The notes under the pieces are model-generated. The model searched no databases and was not told where the DNA came from. It worked only from the letters and a program-made list of their open reading frames with translations. A program made the position numbers and the translations under genes. Positions 6,801-63,559 of a stretch of DNA of 64,000 nt are shown here, piece after piece. This DNA is from Leucobacter chromiireducens (GTDB lineage: Bacteria; Actinomycetota; Actinomycetes; Actinomycetales; Microbacteriaceae): contig NZ_RPDI01000003.1 of the NCBI RefSeq assembly GCF_003917135.1, forward strand, positions 101,145 through 165,144. The letters are read 5' to 3'. Numbering within the stretch: the first letter of the stretch is position 1; each line of letters begins with the position of its first letter.

Positions 6801-8761
<1,961 letters not shown>

Positions 8762-8802
8762 TTTACCGAGCGGCTCGAGTGAGTCAAGTTGATTCACCAA
8801 AA

Positions 8803-8823
8803 CTTGAGCTGATCACACTCAAC
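8803..8823. promoter_or_regulatory. HAIR operator 2 upstream of dnaK
   Basis: CTTGAGC, 7 bp, ACTCAAC: a second HAIR element 62 bp further upstream, with one changed base in each arm. A lone half-site (GAGTCAAG) lies between the two, around 8780. Tandem HAIR sites before dnaK are usual in actinobacteria. Confidence 0.8.
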
Positions 8824-8927
8824 TTTCAGGAAATGGCCACGATCCGGCCAGATTCTCCCCTGATCAGACCACACGCGGTCCCGAATCCCCCTCCCGCCGC
8901 GACCCGCTTGCCACTACTGTGAGCAGC

Positions 8928-10271
8928 ATGAGCGAAACCGCGCCGGCCGCCCCTCCCACCGCGACTCCCCCGGCCGCCCCCGCCGGGAAGGGGCGCATCC
9001 TCGCCTGGTCGCTGTGGGACTGGGGATCCGCGGCGTTCCAGGCCGTCGTGACCACCTTCGTGTTCGGCGTGTACATCACGCAGCCGGCGTTCGGCCCGGA
9101 GGCTGAGGTCACCGCGCAGCTCGGCACCGCGCTCCTCATCGCCGGCATCGCGGTCGCGCTCGTCGCCCCGATCACGGGCCAGCTCTCCGACGCCGCTGGA
9201 CGCCGCAAGCTCTGGCTCGGGATCACGACCGCCGCCACCGTCGGCTGCACCGCGCTCCTCGCGCTCGTCGCCCCCGAACCGAACTACCTGATGCTCGGCC
9301 TCGTGCTGCTCGCCATCGGCAACGTGGCGTTCGAGTTCGCCACCGTCAGCTACAACGCCATGCTCAGCCAGATCTCCACGAACGCGAACGTCGGCCGTGT
9401 CTCCGGCTTCGGCTGGGGCATGGGCTACCTCGGCGGCATCGTGCTGCTCGCGATCCTGCTCGTCGGCTTCATCTTCCCCGATCCCGGCTGGTTCGGCGTC
9501 ACCCACGAGGGCGGCTGGAACATCCGCGTCGCGATGCTCGTGTCAGCCGCATGGTTTGCGCTGAGCGCGATCCCCGTCTTCCTCGCGGTCCCCGAAATCA
9601 CCCCCGACCCCGCGCGGAAGCCCGGCATGCGCGGCGTGTTCACCGCGTACGGCACCCTGTTCCGCACGATCGGCGGGCTCTGGACGAGCGCGCGCCAGAC
9701 GCTCTTCTTCCTCGTCGCGAGCGCGGTGTTCCGCGACGGCCTCGCCGGGGTCTTCACCTTCGGCGGCGTGATCGCGGCGCGCAGCTTCGGCTTCGACGCG
9801 ACCACGGTCATCATCTTCGCGATCGCCGCGAACGTGGTCGCCGGGCTCGCGACGATCGGCGCCGGCTTCGCGGAGGACCGGATCGGCGCGAAGCCGATCA
9901 TGGTGGGCTCACTCGCCTGCATGATCCTCTCGGCGCTGCTCGTCTTCATCCTCGCCGACCTCGGCACGTGGGTGTTCTGGGTGTTCGGGCTGCTCCTGTG
10001 CATCTTCGTCGGCCCGGTGCAGTCTGCGAGCCGCACCTTCCTCACGCGCCTCATCCCCGCGGGCCGCGAGGGCGAGATCTTCGGGCTCTACGCGACGACC
10101 GGCCGCGCCGTGTCGTTCCTCGCACCCGGCGCGTTCACGCTCACGGTCGCGCTCGGCGGCGCGGCGATCTTCGGCATCCTCGGCATCGCGCTCGTGCTCA
10201 TCGTCGGGCTGATCCTGCTCCTCCCCGTCCGCGCGCAGCGCGGCACGGCAACCGTCTCCACAGGCGCGTGA
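8928..10271 (+). CDS. MFS transporter, UMF1 (Atg22-like) family
   Basis: A 447-residue membrane protein starting, after a Pro/Ala-rich tail, with ILAWSLWDWGSAAFQAVVTTFVFGVYI, the W-D-x-G-S-x-x-F signature of the UMF1 / Atg22 vacuolar-efflux-like family. About twelve hydrophobic helices follow, with GQLSDAAGRRKLWL as the loop 2-3 motif A. The ATG at 8928 is chosen because TACTGT (8915-8920) ends 7 bp before it, giving a leaderless transcript; a GTG at 8919 is in frame. Substrate unknown; amino acids are transported by eukaryotic relatives. Confidence 0.85.
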   Translation: MSETAPAAPPTATPPAAPAGKGRILAWSLWDWGSAAFQAVVTTFVFGVYITQPAFGPEAEVTAQLGTALLIAGIAVALVAPITGQLSDAAGRRKLWLGITTAATVGCTALLALVAPEPNYLMLGLVLLAIGNVAFEFATVSYNAMLSQISTNANVGRVSGFGWGMGYLGGIVLLAILLVGFIFPDPGWFGVTHEGGWNIRVAMLVSAAWFALSAIPVFLAVPEITPDPARKPGMRGVFTAYGTLFRTIGGLWTSARQTLFFLVASAVFRDGLAGVFTFGGVIAARSFGFDATTVIIFAIAANVVAGLATIGAGFAEDRIGAKPIMVGSLACMILSALLVFILADLGTWVFWVFGLLLCIFVGPVQSASRTFLTRLIPAGREGEIFGLYATTGRAVSFLAPGAFTLTVALGGAAIFGILGIALVLIVGLILLLPVRAQRGTATVSTGA

Positions 10272-10312
10272 CCGAGGCCCCGGCGGGGGCCGCGAGCCGC
10301 TAACCTGGATCG

Positions 10313-11587
10313 GTGGCCCGTCCCCCTCTGTCCCCCGAGCAGCTCGCCGTCTACGAACGGATCGAGCACACGCGCGAGCACATTTTCGTGACGGGCCGCG
10401 CGGGAACGGGCAAGTCGACGATCCTCACCCACCTGGCGTGGAACACGAGCAAGATCATCGCGGTCTGCGCGCCCACCGGCGTCGCGGCGCTCAACGTCGG
10501 CGGCCAGACCATCCACTCGCTGCTGCGACTCCCCACCGGCGTGATCGCCGACCAGGAGCTCGATCAGCCGGCCGAGCTGAAGAAGATGCTCGCCTCGATC
10601 GACACGCTCGTGATCGACGAGATCTCCATGGTGTCGGCGGACCTCATGGACGCAATCGACCGCTCGCTCCGCCAGGCGCGCGGCAAGCGGCACGACCCGT
10701 TCGGCGGCGCCCAGATCATCATGTTCGGGGATCCCTATCAGCTGCCACCCGTGCCGCCACGGGATCCGCACGAGCGCGCCTACTTCGCGGACACGTACCG
10801 CTCGCTCTGGTTCTTCGACGCGAACGTGTGGCAGGCCGCGGAGCTCTCGACGATCGAGCTCGTCGAGGTGCACCGCCAGCGCGACGATCGCTTCAAGCAG
10901 ATCCTCGGCTCCGTGCGGCACGGCGTCGTCACCGCCGACCAGGCGGCGGAGCTGAACGCCGCGGGCGCGCGCCCGGCGCCGCGCGACGTGATCACGCTCG
11001 CGACGACCAACGCGACCGTGAACCGCATCAACGCCGAGCGGCTCGCGGAGATCCGCGGCGGCGCGCTCCGCGCGGTCGCGGAGATCAACGGCGAGTTCCG
11101 CGAGAACACCTATCCGGCCGACGAGGTGCTCGAGCTCAAGCCGGGCGCACAGGTCATGTTCCTCCGCAACGACGCCGACGGCCGCTGGGTGAACGGCACC
11201 ATCGGCACGGTCTCCCGCGTCGACGGCACCGTCTGGGTGGAGGTGGACGACGAGGAGTACGAGGTCGAGCCCACCGTGTGGGAGCGCTACCGCTACCGCT
11301 ACGACGCGGAGACGAAGAAGCTCGAGAAGGAGGTCGTCGCCGAGTTCGAGCAGTTCCCGCTGCGCCTCGCGTGGGCGGTGACCGTGCACAAGTCTCAGGG
11401 GCACACGTACGACGCCGCCGTGGTCGACCTGGGGCCGCGCGCGTTCAGCGCCGGGCAGACCTACGTCGCGCTCAGCCGCGTCCGCTCACTCGATGGGCTG
11501 TTCCTGCAGCGACCGCTGCAGCCGCGCGACGTCATCGTTGACCCGAACGTGGTCCGCTTCATGCAGCACCGCGAGGTGCGCGGCTAG
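10313..11587 (+). CDS. PIF1/RecD-like superfamily 1 helicase (AAA ATPase)
   Basis: A 424-residue SF1B helicase core. Walker A is GRAGTGKST (residues about 28-36), followed by APTGVAALNVGGQTIHSLL (motif Ia region), VIDEISMVSADLMDAID (Walker B) and MFGDPYQLPPVPP (motif III). The C-terminal domain has LRLAWAVTVHKSQGHTYDAAVVDLG and GQTYVALSRVRSLDGL (motifs V and VI). This matches PIF1-like 5'-3' helicases such as the phage Dda family. TAACCT at 10301-10306 lies 6 bp before the GTG, suggesting a leaderless mRNA. The gene converges on sipW with a 29-bp overlap. A role in unwinding or recombination is family-based. Confidence 0.85.
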   Translation: MARPPLSPEQLAVYERIEHTREHIFVTGRAGTGKSTILTHLAWNTSKIIAVCAPTGVAALNVGGQTIHSLLRLPTGVIADQELDQPAELKKMLASIDTLVIDEISMVSADLMDAIDRSLRQARGKRHDPFGGAQIIMFGDPYQLPPVPPRDPHERAYFADTYRSLWFFDANVWQAAELSTIELVEVHRQRDDRFKQILGSVRHGVVTADQAAELNAAGARPAPRDVITLATTNATVNRINAERLAEIRGGALRAVAEINGEFRENTYPADEVLELKPGAQVMFLRNDADGRWVNGTIGTVSRVDGTVWVEVDDEEYEVEPTVWERYRYRYDAETKKLEKEVVAEFEQFPLRLAWAVTVHKSQGHTYDAAVVDLGPRAFSAGQTYVALSRVRSLDGLFLQRPLQPRDVIVDPNVVRFMQHREVRG

Positions 11588-38502: not shown

Positions 38503-39672
38503 TCAGCGCTCGAGCACCACGGCGAGGCCCTGCCCGACGCCGATACAGATCGCCACCACGGCGACCCCGCCGCCGCGGCGACGCAGCTCGTGCGCGGCGT
38601 GGCCGATGATCCGGCCGCCTGACGCCCCGAGCGGGTGGCCGATCGCGAGCGCACCGCCGTGGATGTTGAGGCGCGCAGGGTCGAGCTCCGGCCACCCCGC
38701 CAGGCAGGCGAGCGCCTGCGACGCGAACGCCTCGTTCAGCTCGACGACGTCGACGTCGGCCCAGGTCTTGCCCGCGCGGGCGAGCGCTCGGTTGGCGGCC
38801 TCGATGGGAGCGGTGGGGAACTGATCGGGATCGACGCCGTGCGCCGCGCGCCCGGTGATCCGGGCAAGGGGTTCGCCTGGCAGCGCACCCTCGGCGCCGA
38901 GCAGCACCGCGGAGGCGCCGTCGTTGATCGGCGACGCGTTGCCCGCGGTCACGGTGCCGTCCGCGGCGAAGAGCGGGCGCAGGCCGCCGAGCTTCTCGAC
39001 CGAGGAGTCGTCCCTGATCCCCTCGTCGCGGGCCAGCTCGGCGCCGGGGACCTGCACGATCTCGGGGTCGTACACCCCGGCGGCCCACGCCTCAGCGGCG
39101 AGCCGGTGCGAGCGCACCGCGAACTCGTCCTGCGCGGCGCGGGTGATCCCCCAGCTGCGCGCGGTCTGCTCCGCCGCCTCGCCGTTCGAGATGGTCCAGT
39201 GCGTCGGCAGCTCGCGGTTGATCATGCGCCAGCCGATCGCGGTGTTCCACATGGTCTGGTTGCCGACCGCCGGCCACGGCTTCGCCGACTTCTCCACGAC
39301 GAACGGCGCGCGGCTCATCGACTCGACGCCGCCGGCGAGCACGACCGTGGCGTCGCCGGTCTCGATCGCACGCGCGCCCTGGATCACGGCCTCCACCGAG
39401 GAGGCGCAGAGCCGGTTCACGGTCACACCGGTCACGGTGGTGGGGAACCCGGCGAGCAGCGCGCCGAAGCGCGCAACGTTCCGATTGTCCTCGCCGGCCT
39501 GGTTCGCGTCGCCGAAGATCACGTCGCCGATCACGGCGGGGTCGACGCCGGTGCGCTCGACCGTGGCGCGCATCACGGTCGCCGCGAGGTCGTCGGGGCG
39601 CACCCCGGCGAGCGCCCCGCCCGCGCGGCCGAACGGCGTGCGCACCGCATCGTAAATCACCGTCTCGGTCAT
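38503..39672 (-). CDS. pcaF: Beta-ketoadipyl-CoA thiolase / acetyl-CoA acyltransferase
   Basis: A 389-residue thiolase with Cys89 in VNRLCASSVEAV (acyl-enzyme nucleophile), the His motif NIHGGALAIGHPLGASGGRI and the C-terminal AICIGVGQGLAVVLE (second Cys). It cleaves 3-oxoadipyl-CoA to succinyl-CoA and acetyl-CoA, the last step of the beta-ketoadipate pathway. The specific assignment rests on its 4-bp overlap with the CoA-transferase genes; thiolase sequence alone does not separate PcaF from FadA-type enzymes. Confidence 0.9.
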   Translation of the reverse strand: MTETVIYDAVRTPFGRAGGALAGVRPDDLAATVMRATVERTGVDPAVIGDVIFGDANQAGEDNRNVARFGALLAGFPTTVTGVTVNRLCASSVEAVIQGARAIETGDATVVLAGGVESMSRAPFVVEKSAKPWPAVGNQTMWNTAIGWRMINRELPTHWTISNGEAAEQTARSWGITRAAQDEFAVRSHRLAAEAWAAGVYDPEIVQVPGAELARDEGIRDDSSVEKLGGLRPLFAADGTVTAGNASPINDGASAVLLGAEGALPGEPLARITGRAAHGVDPDQFPTAPIEAANRALARAGKTWADVDVVELNEAFASQALACLAGWPELDPARLNIHGGALAIGHPLGASGGRIIGHAAHELRRRGGGVAVVAICIGVGQGLAVVLER

Positions 39673-40319
39673 GCCTGTGCTCCTTCATGCAGTGTCAGTC
39701 CGGTCAGCTCACGCAGCTCGGCCATGGTGGTGTCTCCGAAGCGCTCGCGCACGGCGAACCCCGTCGCGGTCACGTCGAAGATCGCCCGATCGGTGTACAC
39801 GCGCGACACGCAGCCCACCCCGGTAAGGGGGTAACTGCAGGCGGCAACGAGTTTCGATTCCCCCTGCTTGGTCAGGAGGTCGGTCATCACGTACACGTCC
39901 TTCGCGCCGATCGCGAGGTCCATCGCGCCGCCCACCGCAGGGATCGCGCCGGGCGCCCCGGTCGACCAGTTGGCGAGGTCGCCGTTCTCCGCGACCTGGA
40001 AGGCGCCGAGCACGCACACGTCGAGGTGCCCGCCGCGCATCATGCCGAACGAATCGGCGTGGTGGAAGTACGCGGCGCCGGCGACGGCGGTGACCGCCTG
40101 TTTCCCGGCGTTGATCAGATCGGGATCGACGAGCCCGGCCGCTGGCGCCGGCCCCATCCCGAGCATCCCGTTCTCCGTGTGCAGGATGATCTCCTGATCG
40201 GCGGGGAGATAGTTGGCGACGAGGGTGGGCGCGCCGATCCCGAGATTGACGACTGCGCCCTCGCGGATATCCGCCGCGATGCGCGCGGCGAGCTCCTGTC
40301 GGGTGATTCCGGTGCTCAT
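39669..40319 (-). CDS. pcaJ: 3-oxoadipate CoA-transferase, beta subunit
   Basis: A 216-residue CoA-transferase beta subunit. NLGIGAPTLVANYLP and HTENGMLGMGP contain the catalytic Glu that forms the thioester, followed by MRGGHLDVCVLGAFQV and AVGGAMDLAIGAKDVYVM. With the alpha subunit it moves CoA from succinyl-CoA to 3-oxoadipate. Overlaps pcaI and pcaF by 4 bp each, so the three are one translationally coupled operon. Confidence 0.92.
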   Translation of the reverse strand: MSTGITRQELAARIAADIREGAVVNLGIGAPTLVANYLPADQEIILHTENGMLGMGPAPAAGLVDPDLINAGKQAVTAVAGAAYFHHADSFGMMRGGHLDVCVLGAFQVAENGDLANWSTGAPGAIPAVGGAMDLAIGAKDVYVMTDLLTKQGESKLVAACSYPLTGVGCVSRVYTDRAIFDVTATGFAVRERFGDTTMAELRELTGLTLHEGAQA

Positions 40320-55273: not shown

Positions 55274-55951
55274 ATGAGTCTGCGCTCCGCCCTGCTCGCC
55301 CTCATTTCCGGCGGCCCGCTCACCGGCTACGACGCCGTGAAGCACTTCCGCAGCTCCGTTGGCCATCTGTGGCACGCGCCCGACTCCCAGATCTACCCCG
55401 AGCTCCGCAAGATGCAGGCAGAGGGGCTCCTCTCCGCAACCGAGGTTCCCTGGGGACGCAAACAGGCCACCAAGACCCGGTATGAGCTCACCGACGCAGG
55501 CCGAGCAGCGCTGTGCGAGTGGCAGGCCAGCCCGCTCGGGTACGCGCCAGAGCGGGATCAGCCCCACCTCATCGCGGCGTACTTTGAGTGGGGCTCGCAC
55601 GAGACCGCGGCCGAGCGGCTCCGGGAGCACATTGCCTTCTACACGGAGGCGCGCGCGGCAGCGGAGCAGCAGGCACGCGAGATTCGCGAGCGCAGCAGCG
55701 CGACCCTCGCCCGACGCCTGCAGGTTACACGTGAGTCAGAGTGGGATCGCATTGCAGCGTTCAAACTCTTCGCCTACGAGGGAAAAATCACACGCGCGAA
55801 CGCCGAGATCGCGTGGGCCGAACGCGGCCTCGAGCTGCTCGCGACGCTCGGCCCGTTCGACGGCCCCGGGACGCCCGTCGAGCCCGGGGCCGCTGGCGCC
55901 CGCGATGCGCCTGGCGCGCCCCGGGGCGGAGGTCCCGTCAGCGCTGCGTGA
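55274..55951 (+). CDS. PadR-family regulator (VanR-like)
   Basis: A 225-residue PadR protein. The winged HTH (residues 1-85, SLRSALLALISGGPLTGYDAVKHFRSSVGHLWHAPDSQIYPELRKMQAEGLL, wing ATKTRYELTDAG) is followed by the helical C-terminal dimer domain (PHLIAAYFEWGS onward). Corynebacterial VanR, a PadR repressor released by vanillate, has the same place next to vanAB. AGGAGG precedes the ATG. Its 3' end overlaps the convergent P450 gene by 14 bp. It ends in a Gly/Pro-rich tail. It should control vanAB and perhaps itself. Confidence 0.9.
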   Translation: MSLRSALLALISGGPLTGYDAVKHFRSSVGHLWHAPDSQIYPELRKMQAEGLLSATEVPWGRKQATKTRYELTDAGRAALCEWQASPLGYAPERDQPHLIAAYFEWGSHETAAERLREHIAFYTEARAAAEQQAREIRERSSATLARRLQVTRESEWDRIAAFKLFAYEGKITRANAEIAWAERGLELLATLGPFDGPGTPVEPGAAGARDAPGAPRGGGPVSAA

Positions 55952-58900
55952 GCGCGGTCGCCGCCACCTCCGCGAGCACCCCGGACACCCACTCACGAGC
56001 CGCCTCGGTCACCGCGAGCGGGCCGCCAGCGTCGTGCCTCCCGTACTCACCAACGCGCGTCGCCCCGCAGGCGGTCAGCGCCTCATCGACGAGTTCGCTG
56101 CCCCGCGAGTACGTCGCCTCGTAGCTGCGATCGCCCATCCCGAACACGGCGTAGCGGACCCCGGCGAGATCCGGCCGTTCCGCCACGAGCGCCCGGTGGA
56201 ACGGCCGCGCCGAGGTGGGCACCTCGCCATCTCCGTAGGTGGCGCAGACGAGCAGATGCATGCGGTCTGCGTCAAGATCCGCTGGCGTGGTGTTCGCCAG
56301 GTCGCACACTCGAACGTCGGCGCCGGGCGCGGCACCCAACAGCTGTGCGAGCTCTTCGGACACCAGCTCCGCCCCGCCCGATTCGGTGCCGTAGAGCACG
56401 GTGAGCGGGACCCCTGCGGCGAGCGCGTCGACCTCTCCCTGCGGCGCGGGGGGCAGCTCGAGCGTGCGGTCCGCCGCCGCGGCGCGCATCTCCTCCCGGG
56501 TGGCGAGCTTGGCGCGCTCGCGCCCCGGGGCAGCCGTCAGGCGTTCCCTGACGTCAATGCGACGCCACCCGTCGAAGTCGGTTCCCGCAGCCCGCGCCCG
56601 GGCGAGTGACGCGGCGGCGCCCTCGGTGGCGCGGTCACCGCGCACGGTGATCGCCCCGGCGGCGAGGTCCGCGGCGACGGTCAGCGCGAGGTCGCGCGCG
56701 TCGGCGCGCTGATCCGGGATCGTCCCGCGCGGCCCACGCCGCAGCCACCCCGCGGTGTAGAGCCCCGGCTCCACCCGCCCATCCGGGTGCGCGCCGGCGG
56801 CGACCGGGGTATCCTCGCTCGCCTCGAATCCGATCGCGGTGATCACATCGTCGACCGGGATGACGAGCGGCCCGGCGTTCGCGTCGCCCATGCGCTCGAT
56901 CGCGACCCCGGTCACCCGTTCGGACCCCTCGATGCGCACCGGCGTCGCGCCAAACCACCACTCGATGCGCACACGGGGTGCGTCCGGGGCCAGCCCATCG
57001 ACGCCCGCCGCGATCAGTTCGCGCACCGCGTCAACCCGCGCGTCTCGCGACTGTTCAGGAAGCCCGTCGGCGCCGTGCACGGTGTGCGTCACCCCCGCGA
57101 GTCCCGCGAGTTCGCGCACCATCACGGGGTCGAACTTCGCGGCGCTCACCTCGCTCCGGCCGATCACGTGAATCGTGCGGACGGCGTCCACGAGTGCCCC
57201 GCGCGAGGCGTCATCAATGTCGGATCCCGCAAACTCCGCCGGATCCCTCGCGAGCAACCGCACGATGTCCATTGCGACGTTCCCGTGCCCGAGCACCGCG
57301 ACGTCCGCCCCCAGCGGGGGCTGGGCCGGCTCGTCCGGGTGCTGGTTGAGCACGCGGGTGACCGTGCCGGCGCCGCGTACCCCCGCCAGGCTGCCGCCGG
57401 GCACCGGGAGAGCACGGTCCTGACGCAGCCCTGTGGCGAGCACCACCACGTCGCACTGGGATCGCAGCTCAGCCAGCGTGATGTCCCGCCCGAGCCTGGT
57501 GTCCCCGGTGAACCGCACGTTTTCGCCGAGGAACAGGCGATCGAACTGCCGCGTCACCGTTTTGGTGCCCTGGTGGTCCGCGGCAACACCGTAACGGACC
57601 AGCCCGTACGGCGTCGGGAGATCGTCGAACACCTCGATGGGCGCAGCGGGGAAGGTGCGACGCAGCGCCTGCGCCGAGAAGCTCCCCGCAGGCCCGGATC
57701 CGACGATCGCGATTCGTGGAGCTGGCGTTTCCGGTGCGTCCGCGACGGGTGCCGGCTGTGCCTCCCCGATCGGCGCGGTTGCCGATCGGGTGCCGCGCAC
57801 CGCGTCCCAGCTGACGGGAAGCTTGGTCATGCCGCGGAATACCCAGCCGCCGATCTCCGGCGGGTTCTCCGGGATGACACGCAGCCCCTCGAGCGTGTCA
57901 AAGAGCAGCGGAAGCCCCACATCTGCCACCTGCGCGCGTGCCACCCAGGCCCCCAGGCACACGTGCACGCCTTTACTGAAGGCCAGGTGCGGCTTCGATT
58001 CGCGGCGCAGGTCGAACTCGTCGGCCCGATCCCAGATCTGCTCGTCTCGGTTCGCTGAGATCACGCAGATCCCGAGCTTCGCCCCCGCGGGGAGGCGCAC
58101 GCCGGCGAGCTCGACCTCGCGAGTGGTCTGCCTGGAGTACAGCCCGATGGGCGCCACCCAGCGCAGCGACTCGTCGAGCGCGGTCGCCCACAGCGAGCGA
58201 TCCGCGGCGACTGCCGCGCGCTGCTCCGGGTGCGTGAGGAGCGCCCAGGCCGTGACGCCGAGCGCGTCGCGGGGCTCGTTGAGCCCGCCGCCGATCGTCA
58301 TCTTCACGTTTGCGCGAATGCGCTCGAGCGGCATCTCGTAGTCGGGGATGCGCAGCAGCGATGAGAGGAGGGAGTTGTCGGGGTGCTTCTGATGCCACGC
58401 GAGCATCTCGTCGAGCACGGCGTCCACCTCGTCAAACGACTGCTTGCCGCGCGCCCACACCTCTGGGTCGTCAGCATAGTTGCCCGTCGCGTCGATCATC
58501 GTCTGGGACCAGCGTTGCAGGTCCTCCTGCGTGGCGTTGTAGAGCCCGATCACGTTGCGCAGGGTCTCGGCCGCGTAGGGGGCGGCGAAGTCCCAGATCA
58601 GATCCGCGCCCGGCCCCTTCTCTGTGAGCTCGGCGAGGTAGTGCTCGGCGGTGCTGCGGAACATGTCGGTCCAGACGCGCTTCACCACGCCTGGCCGGAG
58701 CGCTGGCTGCCAGGCCTTGCGCTCGAGGTAGTGCTCGGGGTCGTCGCGGCGCAGCATGGAGTGCCCCATGGCGCGGATCTGCAGGGAGTCGCGCTCGTTT
58801 GCTGAGAACACCTCCGGGGTGAGCTCGGTCTGGTGCACCGCGGCATAGGAGGTGACGAGATACCGGTTCACCTGGGGGACCCAGTGCACTCCGCCCGCTG

Positions 58901-58988
58901 CGCGGAGTCGCTCGTAGATGGGGAAGGGGTCGCGGTAGAGATCCGGGATCGTTACCCAGTCGGCAATCGGCGCCTCGATACCAGTCAT
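55938..58988 (-). CDS. Self-sufficient cytochrome P450: P450 - FprA-type reductase - flavodoxin fusion
   Basis: One 1016-residue chain with a full electron path from NADPH to heme. Residues 1-394 are P450: Glu273-x-x-Arg276 (LDESLRW), heme Cys344 in FSKGVHVCLG, and an I-helix with Glu238-Pro239 (GGGLNEPRD) instead of the usual acid-Thr pair. Residues 424-785 are an adrenodoxin/FprA-type reductase: FAD loop VGSGPAGSFSAQAL, NADPH loop LGHGNVAMDIVRLL and TAGWLRRGPRGTIPDQ. Residues 862-1012 are a flavodoxin: LYGTESGGAELV, ATYGDGEVP and FGMGDRSYE. The GWVFRGMTKLPVSW segment and Glu-Pro pair recall GcoA (CYP255, guaiacol demethylase), so aromatic O-demethylation is my best guess. AAGGAC supports ATG 58988. 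Confidence 0.93.
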   Translation of the reverse strand: MTGIEAPIADWVTIPDLYRDPFPIYERLRAAGGVHWVPQVNRYLVTSYAAVHQTELTPEVFSANERDSLQIRAMGHSMLRRDDPEHYLERKAWQPALRPGVVKRVWTDMFRSTAEHYLAELTEKGPGADLIWDFAAPYAAETLRNVIGLYNATQEDLQRWSQTMIDATGNYADDPEVWARGKQSFDEVDAVLDEMLAWHQKHPDNSLLSSLLRIPDYEMPLERIRANVKMTIGGGLNEPRDALGVTAWALLTHPEQRAAVAADRSLWATALDESLRWVAPIGLYSRQTTREVELAGVRLPAGAKLGICVISANRDEQIWDRADEFDLRRESKPHLAFSKGVHVCLGAWVARAQVADVGLPLLFDTLEGLRVIPENPPEIGGWVFRGMTKLPVSWDAVRGTRSATAPIGEAQPAPVADAPETPAPRIAIVGSGPAGSFSAQALRRTFPAAPIEVFDDLPTPYGLVRYGVAADHQGTKTVTRQFDRLFLGENVRFTGDTRLGRDITLAELRSQCDVVVLATGLRQDRALPVPGGSLAGVRGAGTVTRVLNQHPDEPAQPPLGADVAVLGHGNVAMDIVRLLARDPAEFAGSDIDDASRGALVDAVRTIHVIGRSEVSAAKFDPVMVRELAGLAGVTHTVHGADGLPEQSRDARVDAVRELIAAGVDGLAPDAPRVRIEWWFGATPVRIEGSERVTGVAIERMGDANAGPLVIPVDDVITAIGFEASEDTPVAAGAHPDGRVEPGLYTAGWLRRGPRGTIPDQRADARDLALTVAADLAAGAITVRGDRATEGAAASLARARAAGTDFDGWRRIDVRERLTAAPGRERAKLATREEMRAAAADRTLELPPAPQGEVDALAAGVPLTVLYGTESGGAELVSEELAQLLGAAPGADVRVCDLANTTPADLDADRMHLLVCATYGDGEVPTSARPFHRALVAERPDLAGVRYAVFGMGDRSYEATYSRGSELVDEALTACGATRVGEYGRHDAGGPLAVTEAAREWVSGVLAEVAATALTQR

Positions 58989-59097
58989 GTCACGTCCTTG
59001 TGTGTAGTGCTTCATTCCTGTTTGACCCGAGTATGCGGGGAAAATAAGTTCAGGAAAAGCGCAATATCTTTCAGAGTTAATTCGGTACTATCGGATT

Positions 59098-59580
59098 ATG
59101 GATCGCACACCGTCGTCGCCGCCCAGCCCCGAGTCCCCCCGAAGTCTCCGCTGGGGCGTGAAAGCCTCGCTCGTCGCCTACGTCACCGACATGTCGGACG
59201 GCAGCGCCACGGTCGAGGCCCCCGCACTCGCCGACGGCGATACGTTCGTCTTCCCGGAGTCGGGATCCGCCACGCCGCTGCAGTTTCGCGGCACGGTGAC
59301 GCTCAGTGGCCACGCGGGGATGCTGCGTCTCGTCTTCGCGGACCCCGCGCTCGAGGAGACCGCTGGCGGCTGGACGCTGACGATCGCCGATCCGCACGAA
59401 GCGGGCGGACGCCTCCCCTTCGCTGCCATCGCTGAGCTCACGCAGACCCGAGATGGCGGGCGGCGCGGCACGGGGCTCCGGCTCACGGAGGCGGGCGCCG
59501 ACCTCTTCTTCTCGGGCCCGTACACCGCTGGCACGGAGCTCGACGACTTCGAGGTCCGCACGGCGGCAGGCCGCCCATGA
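59098..59580 (+). CDS. Single-domain HtaA-like protein without signal peptide
   Basis: A 160-residue protein resembling the HtaA heme-binding domain: LRWGVKASLVAYVTDMSDGSATVEAPALADG, FVFPESGSATPLQFRGTVTLSGHAGMLRLVFADP and GLRLTEAGADLFFSGPYTAGTELDDFEV follow the domain's usual order. HtaA proteins are normally exported heme binders, but this one begins without a signal peptide or membrane helix, so it appears cytoplasmic. TACTAT (59086-59091) lies 6 bp before the ATG (leaderless). It is divergent from the P450 fusion and overlaps the LysR gene by 4 bp, which suggests a link to heme supply or ligand binding for the P450 (inference). Confidence 0.72.
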   Translation: MDRTPSSPPSPESPRSLRWGVKASLVAYVTDMSDGSATVEAPALADGDTFVFPESGSATPLQFRGTVTLSGHAGMLRLVFADPALEETAGGWTLTIADPHEAGGRLPFAAIAELTQTRDGGRRGTGLRLTEAGADLFFSGPYTAGTELDDFEVRTAAGRP

Positions 59581-60545
59581 GCACCCGATCCAGCATCCCG
59601 CCGTTCACGCTGAAGCAGCTCGCGTACTTCGTTGCCGCGGCCGAGGAGGGCACCATCACGGGCGCCGCCGACGAACTGCACGTCTCCCCGTCGGCGATGT
59701 CCGACGCGATCACCGAGCTCGAGTCGATCGTCGGCGAGCGGCTGTGCATCCGCCGCCGCGCGCACGGGCTCACGCTGACCCCCGCGGGGCAGCAGCTCAT
59801 GCGCCACGCGCGGCAGATGCTCACGGAGGCCGACGAGCTTTCGCGCACCATGGGCAGCCGCGCCGACGTGCTCAGCGGCCCGATCGTGATCGGCTGCTAC
59901 CCCACGCTGGCGCCCATCATCCTGCCGCCGCTCCTCCAGGACTTCACCAGCCTCCACCCGGGGGTCGAGCTCTCTATCCTCGAGGCGACGCAGGATCAGC
60001 TCGCGAGCGCGCTCGCCTCGGGGCGCGTCGATCTCGCGTTCGTGTACGACATGCTGGTCGCTGGCACTCCCGCGCGCAGCCGACTGTTTGAGCTGCCGGC
60101 GCACGTGGTGCTCCCCGCGAACCATCGGCTCGCCGATCAGCCGGCGGTGCGCCTCGAAGACGTGATCGACGAAGACCTGATCCTGCTCGATTCCCCGCCG
60201 TCGAGCGAGCACACGCTCACCGTGTTCGCCGAGCGCGGGCTGCGCCCGCGCGTGCGGCACCGCACCGCGAGCTACGAGGTGGTGCGCACGCTCGTTGCGC
60301 GCGGCCTCGGCTACGGCATCCTCGTGTCGCGGATCGCCAACCCGGCGAGCTACGAAGGATTTCCGCTGGTCACCAAGCGGATCGACCCGCCCGTGTCCCC
60401 CGTTGCCATCGAGGTGATCTGGTCGCCGGATCGTCCCCTCCCCGCCCGCACGCGCGCGCTCCTCGAGTTCGCGCGCCAGGTGGACTGGGGCGGCAGCGGC
60501 GGCGTCCCGGCACCTGCCGTGGACGCCGCCGACCTGGCGACGTAG
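59577..60545 (+). CDS. LysR-family transcriptional regulator
   Basis: A 322-residue LTTR: HTH at residues 12-70 (FTLKQLAYFVAAAEEGTITGAADELHVSPSAMSDAITELESIVGERLCIRR) and a periplasmic-binding-type effector domain (GPIVIGCYPTLAPIILPPLLQDFTSLHPGVELSI onward). Coupled to the HtaA-like gene (ATGA). It likely activates the divergent P450 fusion and its own operon in response to an aromatic ligand. The 109-bp divergent region is AT-rich for this genome. Confidence 0.9.
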   Translation: MSTRSSIPPFTLKQLAYFVAAAEEGTITGAADELHVSPSAMSDAITELESIVGERLCIRRRAHGLTLTPAGQQLMRHARQMLTEADELSRTMGSRADVLSGPIVIGCYPTLAPIILPPLLQDFTSLHPGVELSILEATQDQLASALASGRVDLAFVYDMLVAGTPARSRLFELPAHVVLPANHRLADQPAVRLEDVIDEDLILLDSPPSSEHTLTVFAERGLRPRVRHRTASYEVVRTLVARGLGYGILVSRIANPASYEGFPLVTKRIDPPVSPVAIEVIWSPDRPLPARTRALLEFARQVDWGGSGGVPAPAVDAADLAT

Positions 60546-60553
60546 TCGCCCGC

Positions 60554-61900
60554 TCAGTGGGTCTCGGCCAGCTCGGCGGCAGTATCCTGCTCCGCCGCGC
60601 GCTCAATGAGCGGCGTACCCCAGCGATCCCGAATGACGAGCACCGCGACAAGCGAGACGACCGCCATCAGGGCGAGGTAGATCGACACCGAGCCGATCCA
60701 GCCCGTCGACTGCTGCAGCCACGTCGCGATCGTCGGGGCGAACGCGCCACCGAGGATCGCGCCGAGCGCATAGGAGAGCGACACCCCTGAGTAGCGCACG
60801 CGCGACGGGAAAATCTCGGCGAAGTACGCAGCCTGCGGCCCGTAGGTGAGGCCGGTGGAGAGCATCCAGGCAGAAAGCGAGATCGCGATCATGACCACGA
60901 GCTGCATGTCAACGAGCAGGAACAGGGGGAATGCCCAGAGGATCTGCAGCAGATAGCCGACGATGTACACCTTGCGGCGGCTCTGCCAGCGGTCGGAGAG
61001 CCAGCCGCCCAGCAGGGTCGTGCCCGCCCACACTGCGGAGGCGAGCGTCACGCAGGCGAGCACCGCCGAGCGATCCATTCCGTGCACCGTGGTCGCGTAC
61101 GACAGCACATACCCGCCCGTCGACATGTAGCCGGCGGCGTTGTTGCCCGCGAACGTCAGCGCGGCGAGGAGGACCAGCCACCAGTGCTTCCGCAGCAGTT
61201 CGACGAGCGGCATGCGGGAGCGCGACTTCTGCTGCTGCAGCTCCGTGAACACCGGGCTCTCCTCAACAGAGCGGCGGATCATGAAGCCGACGATGAGCAT
61301 CACGATGCTCAGCAGGAACGGGATGCGCCAGCCGAACTCCAGGAACTTCTCCGGTCCGAATGCCGCGGTGGTGAGTGCCAGCACACCGGACGCGAGCAGC
61401 ATGCCGAACGGCACGCCGAGCTGCGGCGCCGAGCCGAAGAGGCCACGCTTGTCCGCCGGCGCGTGCTCCACGGCCATGAGCGCAGCACCGCCCCACTCGC
61501 CGCCTGCCGAGAAGCCCTGCAGAATGCGCAGGAACACGAGCATGATCGGGGCGATGATGCCCGCCTGCTCGAAGGTGGGGAGCACGCCGATCAGCGTGGT
61601 CGCCGCGCCCATGAGGATCAGGGTCAGCACGAGCATTGAGCGCCGACCGAGGCGGTCGCCCAGGTGGCCGGCGACGATCGCGCCGAGCGGGCGGAACAGG
61701 AAGCTGATGCCGATCGTCGCGAACGAGAGCAGCAGTGCCGCCTGCGCACCGAGCGGTTCGAAGAAGAGCTGGGCGAACACGAGGGCAGCGGTGTTCGCGT
61801 AGATGAAGAAGTCGTACCACTCAATGGTGGTGCCGACCATCGTCGCGAGAGCGACGCGGCGGCTCTCCTTGCGGCCGCTCGTGACGGGTGCGGATGACAT
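60554..61900 (-). CDS. MFS transporter, metabolite:H+ symporter (MHS) family
   Basis: A 448-residue symporter with the MHS family opening VALATMVGTTIEWYDFFIYANTAALVFAQLFF, GHLGDRLGRRSMLVLTLILMG (motif A) and RILQGFSAGGEWGGAALMAVEHAP. Members such as ShiA and PcaT/aromatic acid carriers bring in organic or aromatic acids with protons, fitting the catabolic region. AAAGGAG precedes the ATG at 61900. Convergent with LysR, 8 bp apart. The substrate is probably an aromatic acid (inference). Confidence 0.88.
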   Translation of the reverse strand: MSSAPVTSGRKESRRVALATMVGTTIEWYDFFIYANTAALVFAQLFFEPLGAQAALLLSFATIGISFLFRPLGAIVAGHLGDRLGRRSMLVLTLILMGAATTLIGVLPTFEQAGIIAPIMLVFLRILQGFSAGGEWGGAALMAVEHAPADKRGLFGSAPQLGVPFGMLLASGVLALTTAAFGPEKFLEFGWRIPFLLSIVMLIVGFMIRRSVEESPVFTELQQQKSRSRMPLVELLRKHWWLVLLAALTFAGNNAAGYMSTGGYVLSYATTVHGMDRSAVLACVTLASAVWAGTTLLGGWLSDRWQSRRKVYIVGYLLQILWAFPLFLLVDMQLVVMIAISLSAWMLSTGLTYGPQAAYFAEIFPSRVRYSGVSLSYALGAILGGAFAPTIATWLQQSTGWIGSVSIYLALMAVVSLVAVLVIRDRWGTPLIERAAEQDTAAELAETH

Positions 61901-62084
61901 GCAGACTCCTTTGTCCGGACGGTGCGCGGCGCTCCATCCAGCGCGCCGCGGGTGCGCCCGGCTGGGGCGCACGCACCATCCTGCGCGCCGGGACATGCAC
62001 GGGTCAAACGGACTGGATTGCATAACTCATTCGGGAAAACCGAAGAATGTGGGCCGGCGGGGGCGCGCCGTGCGTTCGGCCCGG

Positions 62085-63133: not shown

Positions 63134-63559
63134 CTACGCCTCTCCCAGATCCGCGAGCACACGCTGCGCGAGCTTGAACGCGGTGTTCGCGGCCGGCACG
63201 CCGCAGTAGAGGCCGGCCTGCAGGATCACTTCTGTGATTTCGGCGACCGTGAGGCCGTTGCGGCGCGCGGCGCGCACGTGCATCTCGAATTCCTCGTGGT
63301 GTCCGAGCGCGATCATCGCGGTGAGCACCGCGACCGAGCGCGAGCGGCGGTCGAGCCCCGGCCGCGACCAGATATCGCCCCAGGCGGTGCGGGTGATGAA
63401 GTCCTGGAAGTCCGCGGTGAAGTCGGTGGTGCCGGCGATCGCCCGGTCAACGTGCGCGTCAGAGAGCACCTCGCGGCGCACCACCATGCCCCGCTCGACC
63501 CGCTCGCGGTCGCTGAGCCCCTCCCGGGCGCCGCCCGGTTCGGCGTCCACGGCGCTCAT
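63134..63559 (-). CDS. pcaC: 4-carboxymuconolactone decarboxylase
   Basis: A 141-residue CMD-fold protein. The TTDFTADFQDFITRTAWGDIWSRPGLDRRSRSVAVLTAMIALGHHEEFEMHVRAARRNGLTVAEITEVILQAGLYCGVPAANTAF pattern is the PcaC/AhpD-like family, with the H-x-x-E-x-x-x-H core. It converts 4-carboxymuconolactone to 3-oxoadipate enol-lactone. Overlaps the pcaD-like gene by 4 bp, in the order expected for the protocatechuate branch. Confidence 0.93.
   Translation of the reverse strand: MSAVDAEPGGAREGLSDRERVERGMVVRREVLSDAHVDRAIAGTTDFTADFQDFITRTAWGDIWSRPGLDRRSRSVAVLTAMIALGHHEEFEMHVRAARRNGLTVAEITEVILQAGLYCGVPAANTAFKLAQRVLADLGEA

Follow-up and report, generated by a model that had tools for sequence, protein, structure and literature searches.

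Domain layout of a fused P450 gene

A 64,000-nucleotide stretch of the Leucobacter chromiireducens genome (contig NZ_RPDI01000003.1, positions 101,145 to 165,144; henceforth, the window) carries a gene in which a cytochrome P450 (P450), a reductase of the FprA type predicted to bind flavin adenine dinucleotide (FAD) and a flavodoxin predicted to bind flavin mononucleotide (FMN) are encoded in a single open reading frame (ORF). The gene lies on the minus strand and runs from an ATG at position 58988 to position 55938, stop codon included; the product has 1016 residues, without an internal stop. An earlier reading of the same DNA (the original prediction) had described these three domains in one uninterrupted frame of that length without naming a strand, and the ORF, the Pfam domains and the matches in the Protein Data Bank (PDB) agree with it. 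In Pfam, p450 (best stretch, residues 269-354), Pyr_redox_2 (425-576) and Flavodoxin_1 (864-1000) are found in the predicted order, all above the curated cut-offs. No further Pfam family was detected in the protein at E values up to 0.01; hence, it contains neither an FNR-type nor a Fer2 domain.

The P450 domain comprises residues 1-398 (57795..58988, minus strand). Its best PDB match by sequence is 6g71 (E 3.7e-159, 535 bits), a structure titled CYP1232A24 with a solved chain of 405 residues, followed by 8u09 and GcoA (165-176 bits). Identity to CYP1232A24 is 58.5% over 395 residues, compared with 32.7% to GcoA. P450s that are more than 40% identical are placed in the same family, and on this measure the domain would be a member of CYP1232. 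The haem ligand Cys344 and the ExxR motif (E273 and R276), both pointed out in the original prediction, are the same in all of the 34 fused proteins aligned, and so are E238 and P239 of the I-helix. The I-helix reads GGGLNEPRD and thus lacks the usual threonine, which is also missing from CYP1232A24 and GcoA in the PDB alignments.

Residues 424-838 (56475..57719, minus strand) form the predicted FAD- and NAD(P)H-binding domain of the FprA/adrenodoxin reductase type, with matches to adrenodoxin reductase 1cjc (E 3.4e-45) and FprA 1lqt (E 4.9e-41). The flavodoxin domain occupies residues 862-1016 (55941..56405, minus strand; PF00258, E 6.9e-22). Cindoxin 4oxx is its first PDB match (E 8.1e-23), followed by the FMN domain of P450BM3 and by MioC, and the motifs of the FMN loops are conserved in the alignment with cindoxin. 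Among the 34 fused proteins, the stretch between W394 and P424 varies from 12 to 44 residues and that between A838 and L862 from 21 to 33, as linkers should. In a Foldseek search with a whole-chain AlphaFold2 model, built with the 34 fused proteins as input, 6g71 was again first; FprA and adrenodoxin reductase came next (ranks 2-8), and GcoA and SyoA followed.

Distribution of the fused gene

After removal of duplicates, 54 fused loci from actinobacteria (the window locus included) and 21 loci with a related stand-alone P450 were available for comparison. A scan of GTDB contigs yielded 36 loci, 27 of them fused and nine with the P450 alone. Matches spanning the P450 and reductase parts were found in 20 of 398 genomes of the same family and in 10 of 396 sampled across the order, while among 396 genomes drawn from the phylum only the L. 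chromiireducens genome itself gave one (E up to 1e-90). In another family (f6), a CYP1232A24-like P450 is present in 65 of 345 genomes; the 16 of these that have a long frame and the reductase were examined and all 16 are fused, one being cut at a contig end.

A search for proteins with the same domain order found P450, FprA and flavodoxin in a single open frame in 48 of the 54 fused loci, from several families. Two of the remaining six stop at contig ends (L028 and L088), and in the other four the frame is interrupted (L030, L042, L075 and L076), either by sequencing error or by decay.

The protein thus has, in one frame, a haem-thiolate domain with its cysteine and ExxR motif, a flavin domain of the NAD(P)H-dependent type and a one-electron carrier, which are the sequence features expected of a self-sufficient P450. 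We consider it likely that the fused gene encodes a self-sufficient chain of P450, FAD reductase and FMN flavodoxin, that the enzyme is an aryl-O-demethylase of the CYP1232 group, and that a small HtaA protein encoded next to it probably helps to load its haem.

Candidate substrates

The solved P450s nearest to the fused P450 are CYP1232A24, SyoA and GcoA. CYP1232A24 reportedly O-demethylates methoxylated phenylacetates. SyoA and GcoA act on methoxylated aromatics according to the titles of their structures and, for GcoA, to PMC6021390.

Genes for homoprotocatechuate degradation were found in a set of 27 fused loci with flanks of about 8 kb: hpaD in nine, hpaE in 10 and an FAH-type, hpaG-like gene in 11. 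They lie upstream in a conserved order in Agrococcus, Microbacterium, Subtercola and one further group of Micrococcales. In one such locus (L017), HpaD (440.5 bits, cut-off 321.4) and HpaE (654 bits, cut-off 638.35) score above the NCBI equivalog cut-offs. The L. chromiireducens genome has an HpaD gene on another contig (431.5 bits against the same 321.4), accompanied by HpaE, GntR and FAH-type genes. Because of the nearest solved P450s and of the linkage to hpa genes, we favour O-demethylation of methoxylated phenylacetates. Substrates such as homovanillate would be converted to 3,4-dihydroxyphenylacetate, which would then be degraded by the HpaD-HpaE-HpaG pathway.

A less probable explanation, to be taken seriously nonetheless, is that the fused enzyme is self-sufficient and acts on a different substrate, either another aromatic or a terpenoid, and that the hpa genes mark a general region of aromatic degradation. 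The hpa genes are found in at most 11 of the 54 fused loci, and the neighbours in the window (a VanA-type Rieske oxygenase, a Fer2 reductase, a PadR regulator, PcaC and genes of a coenzyme A pathway) would fit such a region. Against this stand the activities reported or titled for all three nearest solved P450s and the recurrence of hpa genes upstream, in the same order, in several genera.

Electron transfer

In the proposed O-demethylase, electrons would pass from NAD(P)H to FAD, FMN and haem, both flavins being bound by the chain itself. A hydride from NAD(P)H would reduce the FAD in the FprA-type domain. Electrons would then move one at a time from FAD to the FMN held by the C-terminal flavodoxin, which would swing by means of a flexible linker towards the proximal face of the P450 and reduce the haem. 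The electron chain of P450cin is likewise given as NADPH-FAD-FMN-haem (PMC9687028). The original prediction had expected NADPH as the donor. In the GRRGP arginine pair of FprA and adrenodoxin reductase, the first arginine is kept in 52 of 52 aligned reductase domains, and the second is a serine in 49 of the 52, XplB included. Because of this serine, NADH may also serve as a donor for the fused P450.

It might be argued that the fusion serves co-expression only, and that the haem receives its electrons mainly from other partners, or between chains in a dimer. The linkers do vary two- to four-fold in length, and P450BM3 is described as an active dimer (PMC9687028). In addition, the L. chromiireducens genome encodes a separate pair of FprA and flavodoxin, whose identities to their fused counterparts are 50.2% and 53.9%, beside a divergent P450 in what appears to be a three-component system (8131-11377 of locus L060, on contig C3). 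We regard this explanation as improbable: in 48 of the 54 loci the domains are still joined and their cofactor motifs conserved, and the fused genes have kept neither a ferredoxin nor a second reductase next to them (for a locus with a second P450, see below).

Comparison with known P450 systems

P450cin (CinA-CinB-CinC, with CYP176A1 and cindoxin) uses the same cofactor chain, from an FAD reductase through an FMN flavodoxin to the P450 (PMC9687028), and the fused protein shares with it the FprA-type reductase and the cindoxin-like flavodoxin. In P450cin the components are three separate polypeptides and the P450 belongs to another family, whereas here they form one chain.

The description of the protein as a merger of XplB, a flavodoxin and a P450 with the domains reordered also stands. 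Identity to XplB of Rhodococcus is 44.6% for the FprA part; the flavodoxin part shows 40.4% identity with the flavodoxin at the N terminus of XplA (Rhodococcus sp. DN22), and no solved structure matches it better than cindoxin. XplA and the fused P450 both lack the usual acid-threonine pair (for XplA, PMC8081977). In XplA, however, the flavodoxin is N-terminal and XplB is a separate protein, while the fused protein has its flavodoxin at residues 862-1016 and the reductase on the same chain.

CYP1232A24 of Arthrobacter, the closest solved P450, was solved as a P450 only, its partners being apparently separate; according to a review (PMC9687028), its authors proposed a cluster with genes for a flavodoxin and a flavodoxin reductase. 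P450BM3 (CYP102) resembles the fused protein in that a single chain carries the P450 and both flavins, FAD and FMN. It differs in that FMN adjoins the P450 and an FNR-type FAD domain, like that of cytochrome P450 reductase, is C-terminal; the fused protein has an FprA-type FAD domain instead, with the flavodoxin last. P450RhF (CYP116B) is likewise a single chain of three domains, and its reductase consists of FMN and [2Fe-2S] ferredoxin domains, the latter C-terminal; no Fer2 domain is present in the fused protein. GcoA/GcoB is an aryl-O-demethylase system of two proteins that was called a new class (PMC6021390), and differs in its separate 2Fe-2S/FAD reductase. In artificial constructs (PMC5575160, PMC4503991), fused flavodoxin and flavodoxin reductase (Fpr) donate electrons to P450s; these are engineered and use other reductase types.

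No description of a natural P450-FprA-flavodoxin single chain was found in the open-access literature, most subscription papers lying outside the search; the original prediction had known of no class with this arrangement. Hence, the layout appears to be new, and the electron chemistry is known. The few natural layouts in which a P450 and its electron supply form a single chain are thereby joined by a further domain order, one with an FprA/adrenodoxin reductase fold that the others do not use. The fused protein also offers engineers natural linkers between an FprA-type reductase and a cindoxin-like flavodoxin.

Origin of the fusion

In a tree of 59 P450s, the 39 fused ones form one clade (support 97/83) beside CYP1232A24 (100/98) and apart from 18 stand-alone P450s. 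In the flavodoxin tree, all 37 fused rows also form one clade (97/92). The fusion may have arisen once or a few times, when a CYP1232-type P450 was joined to a reductase-flavodoxin pair resembling CinB-CinC; the relatives of the P450 ancestor would use a separate ferredoxin.

A separate gene for a [2Fe-2S] ferredoxin is close by in all 21 stand-alone loci, and a Pdr-type reductase gene in 19 of them; one of the two loci without the latter (L035) is a 3.6-kb contig. Among the fused loci, a separate ferredoxin and reductase of these kinds are found in one of 54 only (L053). There they accompany a second, stand-alone P450 (2919-4208) that is 42% identical and lies about 3 kb from the fused gene. 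Because of this contrast, it seems that the fused lineage gave up an iron-sulphur chain and took on a flavodoxin chain. This P450 lineage would thus have moved from an iron-sulphur to a flavin partner, and its close relatives still show both conditions. One of the stand-alone relatives is carried on an Agrobacterium plasmid.

Separate and nearly joined arrangements are also found. On a plasmid of Rhodococcus pyridinivorans, P450, FprA and flavodoxin are separate genes in the same order, the first two overlapping by 4 nt; in three loci (L050-L052), the FprA and flavodoxin genes share a frame and are separated by a single TAG and three codons. A frameshift or assembly artefact that fuses three genes, for which these separate genes and the four interrupted loci might be invoked, is excluded at either junction by the 48 independent one-frame loci in several families. 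On a plasmid of Enterobacter hormaechei with VIM in its name (L082), genes for FprA, a flavodoxin, a P450 and a transporter of the major facilitator superfamily (MFS) also follow one another.

Evidence against the proposed interpretation

Several observations weigh against the origin, the structure or the function proposed above. In a larger P450 tree with 54 fused rows the clade holds, yet a grouping of the fused P450s without CYP1232A24 is weak (86/30). In the FprA tree (52 rows), the split reductase of locus L057 sits among 38 fused ones, and a single fused clade is just rejected by the approximately unbiased (AU) test (p 0.0465). In L057 (3782-5695) the gene order is reversed to flavodoxin-FprA, and the reductase has a long branch. 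Given this order and this branch, L057 may represent a later escape from the fusion, a second fusion event or an error of the tree.

The whole-chain model has a mean predicted local distance difference test score (pLDDT) of 78.5 and a predicted template modelling score (pTM) of 0.61; confidence is low for the interdomain linker (residues 400-419) and around the haem loop (pLDDT under 50). No flavodoxin is among the best 50 Foldseek matches, as the two larger domains fill the list, so the flavodoxin fold is assigned from sequence.

As for the substrate, no hpa genes were found in the other 27 fused loci, which have shorter flanks. They are not adjacent to the fused gene in the window, nor are they linked to it in Leucobacter loci. 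Furthermore, the L. chromiireducens genome encodes HpaB, a possible alternative route to 3,4-dihydroxyphenylacetate without the P450. An argument that the P450 must make homoprotocatechuate for lack of HpaB fails for that reason.

A small HtaA gene beside the fused gene

On the plus strand, next to the fused gene, lies a gene (59098..59580) for a predicted haem-binding protein of the HtaA family, 160 residues long and without a hydrophobic signal segment. PF04213 matches it with an E value of 1.1e-14 (55.8 bits, cut-off 24). Its model has a pLDDT of 92.4, and the best PDB fold is the HtaA domain 6jsa from Corynebacterium (Foldseek E 9.6e-09). By domain and modelled fold, the protein would be a member of the HtaA (CR domain) family.

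An HtaA gene is present in 36 of the 54 fused loci and in none of the 21 stand-alone loci. In 22 fused loci it is on the opposite strand; in 14 it has the same orientation and lies immediately upstream. The 18 fused loci without it include all seven of one family (f7) and some with little upstream DNA. In two loci (L093 and L096) the coordinates suggested an in-frame fusion of HtaA to the P450; they are misleading, as the frames differ, and in L093 the two genes overlap by 4 nt. To our knowledge, small HtaA proteins are otherwise known only from haem uptake at the surface. Judged by hydropathy alone, the 36 proteins encoded in fused loci do not resemble secreted or surface proteins, as the 17-residue hydropathy within their first 60 residues peaks at 0.22-1.36.

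In HtaA of Corynebacterium diphtheriae, a tyrosine of helix 1 binds iron, a histidine is hydrogen-bonded to that tyrosine and a later tyrosine holds a propionate (PMC12494546). All 36 small HtaA proteins of fused loci have the corresponding residues, Tyr28, His72 and Tyr142. HtaA has been tied to haem transport (PMC10060970). We infer that the small HtaA beside the fused gene may bind haem and act as a donor or store for the P450, helping to load it.

Small HtaA genes beside other P450s

In one genome (G1215), two further small HtaA genes adjoin other P450s. The idea of a wider linkage came from loci L111 and L112, which are among the first six of 36 small-HtaA loci; the 36 had been chosen by their short open frame before P450s were searched for (six of eight matches, plus 30 from a longer list). 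A P450 gene lies within 1.6 kb on the same strand in 13 of the 36, 11 of them among the later 30, compared with none of 20 loci with large, surface-type HtaA (Fisher, 0.0012). From 168 PF00067 matches in 22 genomes, about 88 Mb, only 0.34 such loci would be expected (Poisson). Many small-HtaA loci are related to one another, so both P values overstate independence.

The HtaA-linked P450s fall into five groups that are at most 34% identical to one another and at most 30% to the P450 of the window (L148, which is broken, was left out). CYP199, P450cin and CYP130 are the nearest solved relatives of three of the groups. The operon order is P450-HtaA-ferredoxin-reductase in L112, L126 and L132, and FprA-flavodoxin-P450-HtaA in L134 and L138; the other small-HtaA loci beside P450s are L111, L122, L129, L130, L136, L139, L140 and L148. 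Two and three HtaA matches are seen in L148 and L149.

In 23 of the 36 loci no P450 lies within 1.6 kb; a P450 is thus not the sole setting of small HtaA. Such loci include L108, L109, L120 and L143-L146. In L108 and L109, the small HtaA gene lies by frames that by eye resemble aldehyde dehydrogenases and aminotransferases.

A tentative proposal, for which the chances seem to us somewhat short of even, is that the single-chain P450-FprA-flavodoxin enzymes represent a new class of holoenzyme with a cytoplasmic haem donor of its own, and that catabolic P450s from no fewer than six mutually distant groups, fused or not, have internalised small HtaA proteins as their haem chaperones. In a 2024 review, whether bacteria traffic haem inside the cell is held not to be self-evident (PMC11442138, section 7). 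Only HemW, Cj1386, CgdH2 and HtpA are given there as demonstrated cases, and the term "P450" does not occur in the review. If the HtaA link is functional, it would answer this question for a large and useful enzyme family.

Other genes in the window

Between the divergent starts of the P450 and HtaA genes lies an intergenic stretch of 109 nt (58989..59097), a likely control region. The HtaA gene overlaps by 4 nt (ATGA) a gene for a LysR-type regulator (59577..60545, plus strand; PF00126 and PF03466). A divergent LysR gene is common to both kinds of loci (47 of 54 fused, 17 of 21 stand-alone). An MFS transporter gene follows on the minus strand (60554..62023; MFS_1 and Sugar_tr above cut-off, start codon uncertain), and an MFS gene is found in 24 of the 54 fused loci.

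On the other side, the genes for the VanA-type Rieske oxygenase, the Fer2 reductase and the PadR regulator adjoin the P450 gene (52901-55951). At the thresholds used, each of them was found in the window locus only or in none of the 54; since they were not found in the other 53 fused loci, a functional unit with the P450 is unsupported. Genes of the beta-ketoadipate type also occur in the window. A thiolase and a 3-oxoacid CoA-transferase B are encoded at 38503-40319, and PcaC, which scores above its NCBI cut-off, at 63134-63559.

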